From a virus: DNA of 64,000 nt. Every line of letters begins with the position of its first letter. Positions within the stretch are counted from its first letter, which is position 1. The stretch covers positions 1 through 64,000 of the IMG/VR virus record IMGVR_UViG_3300025949_000023; one strand, given 5' to 3'. Under the pieces are notes generated by a model that saw only the letters and a program-made list of their open reading frames with translations, made no database searches and was not told the DNA's origin. The translations under genes were made by a program, and so were the position numbers. This document shows, one piece after another, positions 29,231 to 43,980 of this stretch.

Positions 29231-29905
29231 TTATTCTCCCTGTTTAATGGTGTGCTCCCCGTATTGTACCAGTTGCTCCTCAGTAAAGCTTATACCTACC
29301 AGCCTGCACGTCCTGGCCATTATCTCGTCATTGCTCATATCATCCCATAATGGCTGTACGCTGCCTGCGGGGTCGTACACCGGCCTGCCGTTTACTGTTG
29401 TGTAATTCCACACTACATCTGGTGGGTAAACATAATAACTGGCTTTTATCGTAGATATATATCCTTCGGGGTAAACATGCCAGCCAGTATCTTCTTCCAC
29501 ATAAAATGGTTTACTGGTAGGCGTCATAGGGTCAATGCGTGAATTAATACGCCCCGGCAATTTTGTGTCGTCAATTCTTTCTATTCCCCTGCCGGTAGAA
29601 TCAGTCATTAAAGCAAGGAATTTAAAACCTGTTGGGTAAGGGGCGATATTAGCTGTTACGGCAATTACTTCATTACTTACCTTGAAAGGCGTTAGGTCGG
29701 CGGCAATCTTACTGTCCATGCCCAGCGCAACACGCGGTACAGGTTTTCCATATTGAAACTGCTGCACCTTTCCCAATAAAAAGTCGTAATAATACCGCTG
29801 CGAAGTGTTGTAGGCAAGCATATACTCCTGTGGCGTTACCTGCCCAATCTGGTTCTTTCGAGCCATGAATTGTAAAAAAAGGTAGTTACTATTAACGTTC
29901 GCCAT
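29231..29905 (-). CDS. Neck/ring protein (head-tail connector-like)
   Basis: A 224-residue protein beginning MANVNSNYLFLQFMARKNQI, with a helical start, a central beta domain (DTGWHVYPEGYISTIKASYY) and a C-terminal helix (SNDEIMARTCRLVGISFTEE). First gene of the neck group, located just past the terminator that follows groEL, so either terminator leakage or an unseen promoter must express it. Structural role inferred. Confidence 0.5.
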   Translation of the reverse strand: MANVNSNYLFLQFMARKNQIGQVTPQEYMLAYNTSQRYYYDFLLGKVQQFQYGKPVPRVALGMDSKIAADLTPFKVSNEVIAVTANIAPYPTGFKFLALMTDSTGRGIERIDDTKLPGRINSRIDPMTPTSKPFYVEEDTGWHVYPEGYISTIKASYYVYPPDVVWNYTTVNGRPVYDPAGSVQPLWDDMSNDEIMARTCRLVGISFTEEQLVQYGEHTIKQGE

Positions 29906-29931
29906 AAAAAAAGGGAGCTGTTATGCTCCCT
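29906..29931 (-). terminator. Intrinsic terminator after groEL
   Basis: Minus strand: 7-bp perfect stem AGGGAGC/GCTCCCT with a 6-nt loop, followed by seven T. It ends right at the ATG of the next gene (29905), so it separates the chaperonin transcript from the neck genes. Confidence 0.85.
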
Positions 29932-29963: not shown

Positions 29964-31577
<1,614 letters not shown>

Positions 31578-31586
31578 TTATTGAAG

Positions 31587-32510
31587 CTATTTATCCGTAA
31601 CCAGCAAAATCTCCCTTTCAAACAGCACAAGGTATTCTTCGCCGTCCACCACTACTTTAGCGCCTGCATTTTTACCGAAATGCGCGGTATCGCCGACTTT
31701 TGCCTCCATTGGTATTAATTCGCCTGTGCCGGTAGCGCGTTCGCCTGGACCTACCGCAATCACCTTGCCCTGCAGTACTTTAATATCCGCATTGCCTGGC
31801 ACTACAAATCCGCCTGCTGATTGCGCAGGTGCTGTATCTGGTTTTACTAAAACCTTGTCTCTAAGTACTTTTTTCTTTGAACTCATATACATGCGTGTTA
31901 ATCCGAATAACGGATGGTTTGTTAATCTTCTGCCTGCTTTTATATATGTACCAACCACGTCCTCGTTTGTAACAACCACCTGCCTGCGCACTTCATTATT
32001 CCACTGGTAAACAACTTCGTAGTCTGCATATTTGTAAACTATAATCGTGTCGTTCCGGCAAATATCTTCAAAATCGCTGGCCACCACCTTCATTAAGTTG
32101 TCCTCGGTTTTCCGGCTGGCATCCGTTACGCCTTCAACCATTGGCACTTCTATTCGTTCGCAAATAAGATTTTTATTCAGCGGGCGCAGGTCGCCATCTT
32201 CGTCAACGAAAGAAAGAATCCACCTATCATAAGGCAAAACACTGGTACGTATGCCGTTTTCTGTTTTTACCAAAAACTCCTGGTCGAAGATAAGGTTGTG
32301 GTGTACTACTACGTATTTGCCTATTAAATGCTCAGGAACGCCAGTGCCTACCTGTTTAACCAATCCTACTACTGGCTGCGTCTCCCTGTTATTTGTGTCA
32401 TACAAGTGCCTGTTGGGCACAATATGAAACGTTACGCCATTTTCAAACGTATAAGATTGTTTTTGCTCAAGTGAGCTTTCAATAAGTATCGTGCCGCGTA
32501 GTGGTGTCAT
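31587..32510 (-). CDS. Three-domain GroES-like co-chaperonin
   Basis: A 307-residue protein, three times the length of GroES. The C-terminal domain (about 212-307) is a clear GroES: VLRDKVLVKP, the mobile-loop region AQSAGGFVVPGN, GKVIAVGPGER, VGDTAHFGKNAG and EREILLVTDK. Two upstream domains follow the same beta-barrel plan with weaker similarity: about 1-103 (TPLRGTILIE, VGLVKQVGTG, GKYVVVHHN) and about 110-205 (LNKNLICERIEVP, NDTIIVYKYADYEVV). Only the third has a canonical mobile loop for GroEL binding. Encoded 27 bp upstream of groEL in the same transcript, so it is the likely lid. Ends at TAG; in-frame TAA two codons later. Confidence 0.85.
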   Translation of the reverse strand: MTPLRGTILIESSLEQKQSYTFENGVTFHIVPNRHLYDTNNRETQPVVGLVKQVGTGVPEHLIGKYVVVHHNLIFDQEFLVKTENGIRTSVLPYDRWILSFVDEDGDLRPLNKNLICERIEVPMVEGVTDASRKTEDNLMKVVASDFEDICRNDTIIVYKYADYEVVYQWNNEVRRQVVVTNEDVVGTYIKAGRRLTNHPLFGLTRMYMSSKKKVLRDKVLVKPDTAPAQSAGGFVVPGNADIKVLQGKVIAVGPGERATGTGELIPMEAKVGDTAHFGKNAGAKVVVDGEEYLVLFEREILLVTDK

Positions 32511-36367: not shown

Positions 36368-36381
36368 CCTGTATAAGATTG

Positions 36382-36456
36382 CAGAACGTACGGGTGTCGA
36401 ACCCGTTTGAATGCTCCCGTGACAGGGGAGTGGCCTAACCGTTAGCCCAACGTTCC
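36382..36456 (-). tRNA. tRNA-Asp (anticodon GTC)
   Basis: Minus-strand cloverleaf: acceptor stem GGAACGT/ACGTTCT (G-U at pair 1), D arm with GGC/GCC, anticodon arm CTCCC-CTGTCAC-GGGAG with anticodon GTC, T arm ACGGG-TTCGACA-CCCGT, discriminator G73. CCA is not encoded. The stretch between the anticodon and T arms is seven nucleotides instead of the usual four or five. G73 and GTC agree on aspartate. Confidence 0.9.
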
Positions 36457-38121: not shown

Positions 38122-38961
38122 ATGGAACAAACGGACGAAAAAATAATTACAGCGCATCATAGTATGGCATGCGGAGATTTAATTGCGTGTATGGCCGGTA
38201 TGAAAGCAGTCTACGAAAGGACGGGGCAAAAATGGTTAATCTACCAAACGATTGGGTTGCCTGCCATGTATTATGAAGGCTGCATTTACGGCACACATAG
38301 TGAAACCGGTGTACCGGTAACCATGAATGAAACCCTGTTTAGGATGCTTCGCCCGCTGATTACAGCGCAGGAATACATCCACGATTTCAGAATCTACCAG
38401 CTTGAAAAGGTGGATGTGGATTTTGACAAGATGTTTACCCTGGGCAAGTGTAATAAACCTTTTGGTATAATACAGCGCTGGCCGTTCTATGCGTTTCACG
38501 AATTGGCTATTGACTGCGATTTAAGCAAGCCATGGATAAGCGTGCCTGAATTAGAAGACGGTATTCTTAAAAGTAATTTAAATGAGTGTATTCTTTTAAA
38601 CAAAACAGAACGCTATTCTCATGGACTTAGATACACTTTTTTAGGTGACTCTCCGTACAGAGGAAGTGTAATTTTCTTGGGAACTAAAACCGAATTGCAA
38701 AGGGTTATTAGCGAACATGCCATTACTCCCGGATACTTAGAATTAGAGAATTTCCTACAGGCTGCTCAATATCTTTCCTGCTGTAAGGTATTTGTTGGCT
38801 CACAAAGCTTTCTTTACAATCTCAGTGAGGCTATGAAGATACCGCGCGTGGTAGAAGTGTTTCCCCCGGCGCCTAATTGTATACCCATTGGAAAAGATGG
38901 GTATGACGCTATGTGGCAGGAAGGGCTGGAATGTTATGTAAAACATTTGTTTGAGAAATAA
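38122..38961 (+). CDS. GT9-like glycosyltransferase
   Basis: A 279-residue protein resembling the heptosyltransferase (GT9) fold: N-terminal ITAHHSMACGDLIACMAGMK (glycine-rich first strand) and, at about residues 225-250, KVFVGSQSFLYNLSEAMKIP, the typical donor-binding helix of GT9, followed by RVVEVFPPAPNC. It is related in style to the C-terminal half of the fusion at 34574..35980. Not in an operon with other sugar genes. Substrate unknown. Confidence 0.6.
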   Translation: MEQTDEKIITAHHSMACGDLIACMAGMKAVYERTGQKWLIYQTIGLPAMYYEGCIYGTHSETGVPVTMNETLFRMLRPLITAQEYIHDFRIYQLEKVDVDFDKMFTLGKCNKPFGIIQRWPFYAFHELAIDCDLSKPWISVPELEDGILKSNLNECILLNKTERYSHGLRYTFLGDSPYRGSVIFLGTKTELQRVISEHAITPGYLELENFLQAAQYLSCCKVFVGSQSFLYNLSEAMKIPRVVEVFPPAPNCIPIGKDGYDAMWQEGLECYVKHLFEK

Positions 38962-38963
38962 TA

Positions 38964-38971
38964 TATATTTG
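38964..38971 (+). promoter_or_regulatory. Promoter -7 box for the replication operon leader
   Basis: TATATTTG (TAnnTTTG) just after the glycosyltransferase stop. Transcription would begin near 38978 and give a leader of about 110 nt that folds into the attenuator described at 38997..39081. Confidence 0.45.
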
Positions 38972-38996
38972 CCTCAACAAAAGGTGAAAGTTGATA

Positions 38997-39081
38997 TTGG
39001 AGCTATTAACTTGCACTCCGGGTTAAAATAAAAAAATGGTTTGCAAGTACGCGGCTCCAACGCGGAAAGCAAGCCTTTTTT
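38997..39081 (+). promoter_or_regulatory. Attenuator-like leader: antiterminator versus intrinsic terminator
   Basis: A terminator sits just before the ATG at 39087: GGTTTGC (39038-39044) with GCAAGCC (39069-39075), an inner CGCG/CGCG pair, then six T (39076-39081). The 5' half can instead pair with the leader: TTGGAGC-N5-ACTTGCA (38997-39015) is complementary to TGCAAGT-N5-GCTCCAA (39042-39060), two 7-bp helices around a 5-nt internal loop. The two folds exclude each other because TGC (39042-39044) is shared, as in transcription attenuators. Confidence 0.6.
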
Positions 39082-39086
39082 GTTAT

Positions 39087-39758
39087 ATGGCAAAACCAAA
39101 ACAGCACCACTTTGATATTAATACAGCTATTGATATTGGATTGCATGAGGCCATAATACTTAATAATTTTGAGTACTGGATTGACTTAAACAGGTCAAAC
39201 AAGAAGCATTTTTATGACGGCAGGTACTGGACTTTTAATAGCGTCCGGGCTCTTTCTGAACTTTTCCCTTACTTGTCTTACAAGCAAATTAGGACGGCCA
39301 TAGACAAACTTTTATCACTGGGTATTTTGGTAAAAGGAAACTTTAATAAAGTCGGGTACGATAGAACAACATGGTATTCAATAACCGACGTTCCCATTTG
39401 CCCCACAGGGCAAATGGATTTGTCCTATAAGGCAAATGGATTTGCCCAAGAGGGCGAACCTATACCAGATAATAACTCAGATAATTTTACAGATAATGAA
39501 AAAGAAAATAGTTATCTTATTAAAAATAATTCATATTTAATATTTAAAGAATGGATTAGAGTAAATACACCAAGAGTATTATCATTAGAAGAACAGGTAA
39601 CAGAAAAAGAGTATAAAACCTTGATTAAAAATTATTCTTCTAATGATATTAAAGTCGCACTTGCTTATATGCACAATCAGAAGGATTTAAATAAAAAATA
39701 CAACTCTGTATATACAAGCCTTAACTTTTTACTTAAAAACAAAAAACAAACAACATGA
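39087..39758 (+). CDS. Replication protein with winged helix (DnaD/O-like)
   Basis: A 223-residue protein like phage replisome organisers. The N-terminal winged-helix part reads EAIILNNFEYWI, GRYWTFNSVRALSELFP, SYKQIRTAIDKLLSLGILVK, then RTTWYSIT. A Ser/Asn-rich linker and a C-terminal helical part (NSVYTSLNFLLKNKK) follow, as in DnaD/O-like proteins that load the helicase. Start MAKPKQHHF at 39087 is preferred because the longer frame from 39036 would begin inside the terminator. First gene of a four-gene replication block; ATGA overlap with RNase H. Confidence 0.65.
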   Translation: MAKPKQHHFDINTAIDIGLHEAIILNNFEYWIDLNRSNKKHFYDGRYWTFNSVRALSELFPYLSYKQIRTAIDKLLSLGILVKGNFNKVGYDRTTWYSITDVPICPTGQMDLSYKANGFAQEGEPIPDNNSDNFTDNEKENSYLIKNNSYLIFKEWIRVNTPRVLSLEEQVTEKEYKTLIKNYSSNDIKVALAYMHNQKDLNKKYNSVYTSLNFLLKNKKQTT

Positions 39759-40363
39759 AGAAAACGCCGACTTTGGAGTGCTTTTTTGACGGTGCCTGTT
39801 ACCCGAAAAATCCCTACGGAACGATGGGGATGGGTGCGTGCATCAATGAAATGGGGATTGAGTTATGGAAATGCAGCCATACAATCCCGGCAGGTAAGGC
39901 CAACAGTAACAATGTAGCTGAGTACCTGGCGCTGGAATACATCCTTGATGAACTGATGAAGCAGGCTGTAAAAATGGAAACTATCGTTATTAAAGGCGAC
40001 AGTAAACTTGTAATTGAGCAAATGAGTGGCAAATACAAGATTAAAAGTGGTATGTATGTCCCCGTAGCGATTAGGTGTAAAAAGAAAGTTATGCACTTAA
40101 GTTCACTTAATGATATAAAATTTCAATGGATTCCGCGTGAGCAAAATAGCTATTGCGATAGCCTAAGTGGCGGTGATAATTTTAATAAACCAAACAACAA
40201 GGTATTAAGGGGTAGTTTTGAGGTCGTAGATGGAAAACTATCGTTTAATTGCACAACTACAAACATACCATTTAATGAAGTTCTTTTTGGATTGACCAAA
40301 CTTAGAGACGAACTTAACAGGCAGATTGACAATCAACAAAATTGTCCTTACCATGGAAAGTAA
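39755..40363 (+). CDS. Ribonuclease H-like protein
   Basis: A 202-residue protein with the RNase HI catalytic set: D in LECFFDGACYPKNPYG, E in NNVAEYLALEYIL, D in IVIKGDSKLVIEQMSG, and the last D in PREQNSYCDSLSG, all in the right order and spacing. It would remove RNA primers or RNA-DNA hybrids in phage replication. The C-terminal 50 residues extend past the RNase H domain. It overlaps the preceding replication gene by ATGA and the following gene by 11 bp. Confidence 0.85.
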   Translation: MKKTPTLECFFDGACYPKNPYGTMGMGACINEMGIELWKCSHTIPAGKANSNNVAEYLALEYILDELMKQAVKMETIVIKGDSKLVIEQMSGKYKIKSGMYVPVAIRCKKKVMHLSSLNDIKFQWIPREQNSYCDSLSGGDNFNKPNNKVLRGSFEVVDGKLSFNCTTTNIPFNEVLFGLTKLRDELNRQIDNQQNCPYHGK

Positions 40364-41729: not shown

Positions 41730-43943
41730 TTATGCCTGCCGCTGTATGTAATCATAATCTTCCACCCGCCGTGCCCTGCCGGTAGCCTTGTTAATCGTGT
41801 ATTCCTCCACCACCTGCATGCGCTTTACTTCTTTCTTTTTGTGTTTGAACTCGCCCATATAGTTTAACAGCCACATCATAAATCCTATACTCACGTCACT
41901 TTTTGTACGGTCGGCGGGGTCAAACGTCTCTAAATCTTCCAGTATCTGTAAGAACTTAATCTTCCACCAGTGCTTCTGGATGTAGATAGCCGCCAATTCA
42001 ATCTGCCTGGCAAATACAAACGGGTCGGACGAGCTGGCGCCATACTCCACGGCCTTGTCGCTTTCCCGCAGTTTACGCATAGCATCAATCGCCGCATCCG
42101 GCTTTTTACCCAACATTGGTAAACAGTTCACATCCATGAAATTGGGCATGGTATTATTGAAGTACTTGATATACTCCTGCGTAGCATCCCTTTCCACGGT
42201 TACCGTGCAGCCATACCACATACTGGCCATTAAAATCTCTTTCCAAAACAATTCCGTTAACCTAGGCCTTCCTATGTACAACGCCACTGGGTCGCCGCCT
42301 TCTTCATGCGCCTCCATGCTGGGGTCAAGTTTGCTGCCTATTACAATTACACCTTTTGAGCCTAATTCCTTCGTTTTATCAAACCTAAAGGTATCAGCAC
42401 CCCCTGCATAGATAGCCGTTCCCATTGGCCACGGCCTGCCTCTTTCATCTATCCGGTAGTTATTCGGTGTTTTGGGAAAGTCTTTTATCAGCCAGTTACC
42501 GTTTATATCGTCGCAGAACTCAATTACAACCTGTTTCTTGCCTTCATTATTGAAGTGTGATACCATAAGCCTCCCACGCCTTAAATACAGCTCTTTATCC
42601 CGCAGCATGCGTTTTACAACTTCAATCTGAGACTTTATATTTTCAAGGTTAAAGGGGCTCATGCTGTCGCCAAAGTCAAACATATCCTGTTCCCTTACAG
42701 GGTACTTGCGCCTTTCCTCTGCCTTATCATCTTCGTCTGTTAGCAGGGCCAATTTATGTTCAAGGTATTTTTTAGCTCCCAGCCTAAGGTATTCGTCCGG
42801 TACCCGTTCTTCATGGTTGGTTACTTCCTGGTTTTTCTGTATCAGGTAGGCCAGTGTTTCTTCGTCCGGTGGGTCAATTACACTCTCACCGTACTTGCCT
42901 ATAAAACCAAACAGCCCGTCATACGCCGGCTTGAAAAACTTAACCGCCTGTTGAGGTAGCCTGTTTAGCGGGTATTCGTATTGATTGGCGGCATCCCATA
43001 TCCTTTTAAATGCGTTACCACCCTTAGTGGGTGGGTTTACCGTTGACGGTATATAAGCAAACCCTTTCCTTACCGCACCTACTACCAGGGTGTCTTTTAC
43101 GATACGCCAGTACTTTGCAAACGATACTTTTAACCATTTACCTGCTTCATCTATGAGTATAAAGCTCCATCTGCCGGAGTCAAATGCGTTTAGCGTGGTG
43201 TCCCTTTTTACTATAATAGAGTTAAGGCCTTCACGGGCGGTGTTCACCTGGCCCTGTGATTGTTTTTTCTTTCCTTCTTTACGCAGGCTGATTTCATTCT
43301 TAGGGTCGGTACCACCTGCAGTACGTGGCCGCAGGTAGATAGGCAGTGATTTAAACGCATACACCAGCATGTTCTCAAACATATCGTCCACGTCGTCACC
43401 GGTCTTTGATATGTTACCGCAGCGTTTATTACCGCCCCAGCCAGCGGCATTGGTGGCTATCCACATCTCTATACACGTACCATGGCTGGTAGCTCCTTCA
43501 CGTCGCGCCTTGCCCCTGATGATAGCCGCTATATACGGGTTACTATAACACGAAATAAAGAAGATAAAGAAAAGCCTGTCACATTCCCTATACTCAGGTT
43601 TGCTGCCATCCTCCAGCGTCCAGTAGGTTAACCAGTAGTAGTAAACTCCGGGGATATACGTTGGAACGCCTTTAATCATCACCCAAACCCCATGCTGGCA
43701 CTTATGCAGCTCCTCCAGTACAAATTTCTTTTGCTCAGGCGTGTATACAGGGTCACCGTCAAAGTCAAACCTAATGTTGTCCATGAAGTCGGGTATCTCC
43801 TGCCTGCGGTAGTATTGTTCTTTTACTGGCCGCTTATTGCCTTCAATCTTTGTTATCGCTGGTTGGTCGGGAATGGAGCAGGGGATGCCCTGTATTATTT
43901 GTTCGGTAGGCATGTTCAATATTTTTATTTGTTCATGTAACAT
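41730..43943 (-). CDS. terL: Terminase large subunit (TerL)
   Basis: A 737-residue packaging motor and nuclease. N-terminal ATPase: Walker A-like RGKARREGATSHG near residues 143-155 and Walker B FILIDEAGKW near 261-270. Nuclease-domain signatures: AIYAGGADTFRFDKTKE (first acidic site), VTVERDATQEYIKYF and the C-terminal TKSDVSIGFMMWLL. It drives DNA into the prohead and cuts it. Size and sequence style resemble crAss-like TerL proteins, which are unusually long. An alternative start at 43913 (MPTEQIIQG) is possible. Confidence 0.9.
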   Translation of the reverse strand: MLHEQIKILNMPTEQIIQGIPCSIPDQPAITKIEGNKRPVKEQYYRRQEIPDFMDNIRFDFDGDPVYTPEQKKFVLEELHKCQHGVWVMIKGVPTYIPGVYYYWLTYWTLEDGSKPEYRECDRLFFIFFISCYSNPYIAAIIRGKARREGATSHGTCIEMWIATNAAGWGGNKRCGNISKTGDDVDDMFENMLVYAFKSLPIYLRPRTAGGTDPKNEISLRKEGKKKQSQGQVNTAREGLNSIIVKRDTTLNAFDSGRWSFILIDEAGKWLKVSFAKYWRIVKDTLVVGAVRKGFAYIPSTVNPPTKGGNAFKRIWDAANQYEYPLNRLPQQAVKFFKPAYDGLFGFIGKYGESVIDPPDEETLAYLIQKNQEVTNHEERVPDEYLRLGAKKYLEHKLALLTDEDDKAEERRKYPVREQDMFDFGDSMSPFNLENIKSQIEVVKRMLRDKELYLRRGRLMVSHFNNEGKKQVVIEFCDDINGNWLIKDFPKTPNNYRIDERGRPWPMGTAIYAGGADTFRFDKTKELGSKGVIVIGSKLDPSMEAHEEGGDPVALYIGRPRLTELFWKEILMASMWYGCTVTVERDATQEYIKYFNNTMPNFMDVNCLPMLGKKPDAAIDAMRKLRESDKAVEYGASSSDPFVFARQIELAAIYIQKHWWKIKFLQILEDLETFDPADRTKSDVSIGFMMWLLNYMGEFKHKKKEVKRMQVVEEYTINKATGRARRVEDYDYIQRQA

Positions 43944-43947
43944 GAAC
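43931..43947. promoter_or_regulatory. Palindrome over the terminase start codon
   Basis: GTTCATG-taa-CATGAAC, a perfect 7-bp inverted repeat, overlaps the terL ATG (43943-43941). It could be an operator or a translation-blocking hairpin, or favour the downstream start at 43913. Confidence 0.35.
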
Positions 43948-43952
43948 CATAG

Positions 43953-43980
43953 AAAAAAGCCCCACCATTTGGCAGGGCTT
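43953..43980 (-). terminator. Intrinsic terminator between the 389-aa head gene and terL
   Basis: Minus strand: 9-bp stem AGCCCTGCC/GGTGGGGCT (two G-T pairs), a 4-nt loop and TTTTTT, 18 bp after the stop at 43999. Confidence 0.85.

Follow-up and report, generated by a model that had tools for sequence, protein, structure and literature searches.

A candidate transcription attenuator in the leader of a replication-initiator-like gene of a Bacteroidota-type phage

Introduction

In plasmids, the control of rep genes by RNA is a textbook subject, tied to copy number and incompatibility. In the pseudoknots of IncI-type plasmids, the pairing activates translation unless an antisense RNA prevents it from forming. 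Attenuation ahead of rep genes is classical in the plasmids pT181 and pIP501, which, according to PMC5703833, combine the same parts as those described below with an antisense RNA. Kissing loops of plasmid control RNAs are reported to follow a YUNR U-turn rule (PMC4485353). Among phages, the replication genes of the satellite P4 undergo premature termination (PMC4825925), and literature searches in open-licence papers yielded no report of phage rep attenuation in the arrangement considered here. The initial annotation of the present locus called such attenuation unexpected for a phage; this still holds in so far as we found no report from phages, but it loses force in view of the plasmid rep systems and of P4.

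Results

Genomic setting of the leader

The window, by which we mean the whole stretch of DNA analyzed, comprises 64,000 bases out of a 72,043-base IMG/VR virus record. Because its terminase resembles those of the Cellulophaga phages phi13:2, phi19:3, phi46:3, and phi18:3 (27% identity), we regard the virus as a tailed phage of Bacteroidota type. The minus strand carries most genes at 1-36 kb and 42-54 kb, and a mainly plus-strand cassette occupies 36.5-41.7 kb, with a tRNA-Asp(gtc) at its edge (36381-36456, minus strand). This cassette contains, in order, a small gene, a homing endonuclease, the gene at 38122-38961, the Rep-like gene, an RNase H-like gene, an unknown gene, and a PAPS reductase. 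Elsewhere in the window, adjoining GroEL-like (PHROG 5725, E 3e-130) and GroES-like (PHROG 3188) proteins are encoded at 29964-32510. The features of the leader and its flanks are the following:

38122-38961, plus strand: upstream gene, family not found, stopping 3 nt short of the -7 box
38964-38971, plus strand: -7 promoter box TATATTTG of the TAHHTTTG type, with predicted transcription start at 38976
38983-39017, plus strand: hairpin 1 (segments 1:2), 13 pairs with one A/G internal mismatch and a 7-nt loop UUGGAGC (38997-39003)
38984-39031, plus strand: candidate leader ORF read from the sequence, GTG start, 15 codons, its stop 4 nt ahead of an in-frame ATG at 39036
38997-39015, plus strand: putative antiterminator 5' arm (pre-emptor-like), TTGGAGC-N5-ACTTGCA
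39038-39081, plus strand: predicted intrinsic terminator, made of hairpin 2 (39038-39075; 7 outer and 4 inner pairs, 7-nt loop GCUCCAA at 39054-39060) and T6
39042-39060, plus strand: putative antiterminator 3' arm, within the terminator hairpin, TGCAAGT-N5-GCTCCAA
39087-39758, plus strand: Rep-initiator/DnaD-like gene, 223 aa (PHROG 11233, E 2.1e-38; PHROG 6493, E 8.4e-20)
39755-40363, plus strand: RNase H-like gene 3' of rep (RVT_3, E 1.7e-10)

PHROG 11233 is a 'replication initiation protein' family, and the Rep-like protein also matches a DnaD-like loader family; it has no Pfam match, and none to a family of the pT181 or pIP501 type in Pfam or PHROGs. The upstream gene (38122-38961) matches no Pfam or PHROG family. 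The leader had been described as standing in front of the replication genes, which is right for the Rep-initiator/DnaD-like gene and the RNase H-like gene behind it, but not for what we take, from reading the sequence, to be the DnaB-type helicase (L138:11228-12754, record 66227-67753, minus strand), nor for the DnaD-like 141-aa protein that adjoins it (L138:13079-13504, minus strand, record about 68.1-68.5 kb). Since both of these genes are encoded on the minus strand, at about 66-68 kb, the rep locus is a separate plus-strand cassette. Two proteins of this phage thus share one domain, as the 141-aa protein aligns with the C-terminal part of the Rep-like protein and with no other part of it (tblastn E 1e-9). 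All eight aligned homologues of the Rep-like protein start near 39087 and not 17 aa earlier, where an alternative in-frame ATG (39036) stands directly behind six A residues; if that ATG were used, the terminator would fall within a coding extension.

Elements of the leader

The layout claimed in the initial annotation, a -7 box, two leader arms, and a terminator just before the start codon, was found in place at every position. The box TATATTTG fits TAHHTTTG, which PMC6847099 gives as the -7 box of Flavobacterium johnsoniae. With the box placed at -12 to -5 (PMC9723704), the predicted +1 falls at 38976. A good -33 element was not found, there being no TTG 17-23 nt ahead of the box, which counts against the attenuator reading. 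The start codon lies 123 nt from the box, compared with 25-53 nt at the other likely promoters of the phage that we picked out. An imperfect palindrome, TTTGTTTGAG...CTCAACAAA (38946-38981), is centered on the box (3 of 200 shuffles fold equally well) and could be an operator. An exact 11-nt direct repeat, TTGATATTGGA, occurs at 38991-39001 in the leader and at 39130-39140 in the rep gene, with a third occurrence of TTGATATT at 39112; these repeats are possibly Rep binding sites. We set aside the idea that the leader is a duplicated rep start: the exact 11-mer is matched in 9 of 2000 shuffles, but the gapped alignment in 195 of 2000. The candidate leader ORF looks weak, resembles the rep N-terminus only weakly, and may have arisen by chance. 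Rfam gave no gathering-level match in the window, with only a chance snoRNA match (E 2.5) on the other strand.

Mutually exclusive predicted folds

The complementarity first noted between the two arms (TTGGAGC with GCTCCAA, ACTTGCA with TGCAAGT) is exact, with 7 + 7 pairs and zero mismatch. What had been missed is hairpin 1, which completes the attenuator layout and carries a loop matching that of the terminator: UUGGAGC is the 7/7 complement of GCUCCAA. Hairpin 1 and its loop match hence give a predicted 1:2 / 2:3 / 3:4 layout, which is that of classical attenuators, together with a possible loop-loop kiss. The folding energy of hairpin 1 is -10.5 kcal/mol (z -2.76; equaled by 3 of 200 shuffles) and that of the terminator hairpin (39038-39075), which is followed by TTTTTT, is -15.5 kcal/mol. 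An A tract and a T tract flank the latter on either side, and its minus-strand fold is not better than that of shuffled sequences (41 of 200 equally good).

The minimum-energy fold of 38976-39086 consists of the two hairpins (-31.9 kcal/mol, z -3.05; 0 of 200 shuffles as good), whereas the alternative fold, in which 38997-39015 pairs with 39042-39060, reaches -30.5 kcal/mol, so that the two end states are nearly balanced, with probabilities of about 0.4 and 0.6. In a growing transcript, represented by equilibrium folds of its prefixes and not by kinetics, hairpin 1 stands alone up to 39044, the antiterminator appears from 39059, and competition with the terminator begins at 39075. Energies, stepwise folding, and shuffles all support the proposal of mutually exclusive folds.

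Rarity of the pairings

A duplex with the terminator as strong as that of the real leader (-25.3 kcal/mol) arose 15 times in 5000 dinucleotide shuffles of the leader and 4 times in 5000 plain ones. Among real 64-mers of the window, 7 of 3498 GC-matched and 140 of 7968 unmatched ones pair that strongly, and among the 49 terminator-like sites of a window scan the present one has the strongest upstream duplex (-25.5), the next being -20.3. Complements of at least 7 bases between the loops of neighboring hairpins were found in 1 of 474 pairs (both strands of the window), against 5 in 154 shuffled windows, that is, 0.03 expected by chance per window.

Terminators abut start codons elsewhere in this phage, on the minus strand at 29912 (ATG 29905; region 29905-29931) and 43957 (ATG 43943; region 43943-43980), ending 6 and 13 nt before the start; one of them precedes the terminase gene. 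It is therefore not the position of the terminator that is special but the leader. No -7 box lies between terminator and ATG at either site, and the true starts behind these terminators may be further in.

Leaders of the Rep family

A profile of nine Rep proteins retrieved 397 viral relatives. Among the best 80 of the 397, rep overlaps the upstream ORF or lies at most 20 nt from it in 38, and a strict scan placed a terminator ahead of the start in 2. Most Rep relatives thus have no such leader, which counts against the attenuator reading. Of 115 located Rep loci, 90 distinct leaders remained once 25 duplicates (by their last 60 nt) were dropped; a looser scan over these loci found 21 that have, within 75 nt, a hairpin with T residues behind it, many of them weak long-range folds. 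By eye, clear hairpins beside the start are present in the window and in L193, L202, L197, and L223, with L150, L233, L234, and L244 as further candidates. In the leader of L223 (about 1371-1490), two long inverted repeats interlock in the order of a pseudoknot, and a T-rich tract directly precedes rep.

Of the 90 Rep leaders, 7 (the window, L149, L150, L161, L193, L197, and L202) contain a pair of hairpins whose loops are complementary over 7 or more bases, the upstream hairpin pair being weak in L149. Such pairs were also found upstream of 10 of 520 other ORFs (Fisher P 0.007; without the window, 0.02), in 31 of 5929 leaders after shuffling, and in 15 of 1867 other windows from the same loci. 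With homologous leaders counted once, the figures are 5/88 versus 10/520 (P 0.05). Stricter stem cut-offs, which we set after seeing the data, give 6/90 versus 2/520 and 2/5929 or, by lineage, 4/88 (P 0.005) and, without the window, 3/87 versus 2/520 (P 0.02). In these six strict cases the distance to the start is 36-54 nt for the second loop and 93-130 nt for the first. The loop pair was present in none of 29 further genome loci.

Compensatory changes in other Rep leaders

The leaders of L161 and L197 are homologous to each other: in each, hairpin 1 has the form GCGAGG-loop-CCUUGC, and a second hairpin, of 16 pairs, precedes the start. Their loop-loop helix is fully paired in both (7/7), and at 3 of the 7 pairs both partners differ between the two leaders. 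Over the whole structure, a compensatory count this high is reached by 8 of 500 shuffles, and every slid version gives 0. In L193 and L202 the loop-loop helix is likewise fully paired in both, with compensatory changes at 2 of 7 pairs, but the whole structure is not exceptional (equaled by 56 of 500 shuffles). Each of these alignments has two rows only. At about 2310-2490, L193 and L202 have a near-identical promoter region and rep start and a diverged leader; a near-identical promoter region with a diverged leader is a pattern of plasmid incompatibility loci. As neither pair of leaders can be aligned in sequence with that of the window, we treat them as analogues. The second hairpin of L161 has no T tract and may hence act on translation there. 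Matching loops in these few other viruses suggest that plasmid-style control may also be used by phages.

Run against 72 chosen sources, a covariance model of the L161 and L197 leaders retrieved nothing on the plus strand at E below 0.02 except these two leaders. Across 391 genomes, matches with E no higher than 1 turned up in 32; by eye, the top three were plain terminators or unrelated and were discarded, and none of the 30 loci examined for such matches encoded a Rep relative. A search for known RNA families over eight leader loci returned only a chance match, in L161 and far from the leader.

Search for relatives of the window leader

No DNA relative of the window leader was found with IMG/VR patterns, protein scans, or DNA searches of named phages. 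The IMG/VR pattern CGCGGCTCCAACGCG returned 51 stretches, none with TTGGAGC upstream, and a two-arm pattern had a single match, inside a coding gene, which we took as chance. Protein scans with the terminase and the 38122-38961 gene gave zero matches, the reductase gene led to 71 loci, none with this Rep, and the named-phage DNA searches produced matches that were unrelated or to the reductase only. This absence of leader relatives counts against the attenuator reading.

Discussion

Comparison with described systems

The elements of this leader, their predicted folds, and their rarity are matters of sequence and computation, and they resemble several described systems, each in part. As in the countertranscript-driven repC attenuator of the staphylococcal plasmid pT181 (PMC5703833), an untranslated rep leader would carry a terminator that directly abuts the start codon of rep (39038-39081 versus 39087) and a pre-emptor complementary to the 5' arm of that terminator (here 38997-39015 with 39042-39060, -25.3 kcal/mol). 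Unlike in pT181, no antisense promoter is seen (no TANNTTTG on the minus strand in 38986-39500, judged by promoter sequence), the Rep protein is unrelated and not Rep_trans (no Pfam match; replication-initiation/DnaD-like in PHROGs), the expression signals are of Bacteroidota type in a phage, and it is two loops of one transcript that match. Since that minus-strand stretch has no -7 box, we do not file the locus as a member of the pT181/pIP501 group. With repR of pIP501/Inc18 it shares a terminator-like structure of the kind that attenuates the rep transcript (PMC5703833) and loops of the kind whose contacts start RNA pairing (PMC4485353); the staphylococcal relatives, according to the former source, have a leader some 320 nt long with an antisense promoter halfway along it and are equipped with a Cop repressor, none of which was found here.

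The pseudoknots of IncI-alpha, IncB, and IncL-M plasmids offer another likeness: there, a loop of an upstream hairpin pairs near the rep start and the recognition loop has 5'-UUGG (see the works cited in PMC10724649). Here too, an upstream-hairpin loop is complementary to a site near the rep start (UUGGAGC, 38997-39003, with GCUCCAA, 39054-39060), but the second loop sits in a terminator; the L161 leader, which has no T tract, looks closer by analogy to the IncI type. The CI RNA immunity of P4 also keeps replication genes off via premature termination, with pairing within leader-derived RNA; where P4 differs is in its processed CI RNA, which has seqA and seqC as targets (PMC4825925).

Alternative explanations

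In our interpretation, the locus is a transcription attenuator that acts in cis on the rep-like gene of this phage and would work like plasmid rep-leader attenuators; we put the probability of this reading at roughly 0.5. Its main rival is an ordinary terminator between genes, which would close the upstream unit, perhaps bidirectionally, with rep expressed by leak-through and with hairpin 1 and the complementarity arising by coincidence. The recurrence of start-abutting terminators without attenuator features at 29912 and 43957, the A and T tracts on both sides of the hairpin, the lack of conservation in relatives, and the 140 of 7968 real 64-mers that pair as strongly all speak for it. Yet the latter figure falls to 7 of 3498 under GC matching, the loop-loop match is as rare as the shuffled windows indicate, a -7 box lies directly upstream, and leaders of related architecture with compensatory changes precede other rep genes; moreover, the minus-strand fold is no better than shuffles. 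On balance we hold an ordinary terminator to be unlikely, though a serious contender.

Ribosome-coupled control, in which the GTG ORF (38984-39031) or the ATG at 39036 is translated and ribosomes lying over segment 2, or reading through the terminator, set read-through, strikes us as improbable. The ORF stop only 4 nt before ATG 39036 would suit it, as would the A at -3 and -6 of that ATG, positions where A is favored in Flavobacterium (PMC6847099) and where the 39087 start has T, and the leader-peptide attenuation suspected in flavobacterial amino-acid operons (PMC9723704). But T instead of A stands at -12 and -13 of that ATG, the 15 codons contain no run of a single amino acid, the eight aligned homologues begin near 39087, and short ORFs are common by chance. 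Least credible is a true pT181/pIP501-type system, with a minus-strand antisense RNA that kisses hairpin 1 and tips the fold toward termination: the pre-emptor, the start-adjacent terminator, and a U-turn-like loop recall such systems (PMC5703833 and PMC4485353), but beyond 38986-39500, where the minus strand has no TANNTTTG box, the next ones lie at 40267 and 40304, and the Rep protein stands outside the corresponding Pfam and PHROG families.

Proposed mechanism

For the attenuator reading that we prefer, we infer promoter activity, termination, and switching as follows. RNA polymerase would start near 38976, and hairpin 1, acting as anti-antiterminator, would fold first. The 2:3 pairing (antiterminator) would be favored once 39059 is transcribed, and the terminator would compete for the same strand from 39075 on. 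Because the end folds are nearly equal in energy, holding hairpin 1 or covering segment 2 would tip the balance toward termination; an RNA acting in trans, a protein, or a ribosome on the short ORF are candidates for either role. Termination would fall just before the rep start codon, and freeing segment 2 would lead to read-through. The loop-loop match might serve as a handle for an RNA in cis or in trans; by our own reading, the UUGG that begins the loop UUGGAGC fits the YUNR rule.

More speculatively, and with decidedly low odds, the leader may kiss itself: terminated RNA (about 38976-39081), which has both of the matching loops, would, once released, pair in trans with hairpin 1 of transcripts made later and favor their termination, such that the sense transcript would be its own sensor of rep dose without any antisense promoter. 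Several unrelated phages with this Rep family (L150, L161/L197, and L193/L202) might use the same device, their loops diverging by compensatory changes that set specificity.

If the attenuator reading is true, short leader RNAs ending before rep should be present in RNA from infections, and the occurrence of the same layout before phage replication-initiator genes, with covarying loop-loop pairs in related leaders, would mean that RNA sets the dose of replication genes in phages as well.
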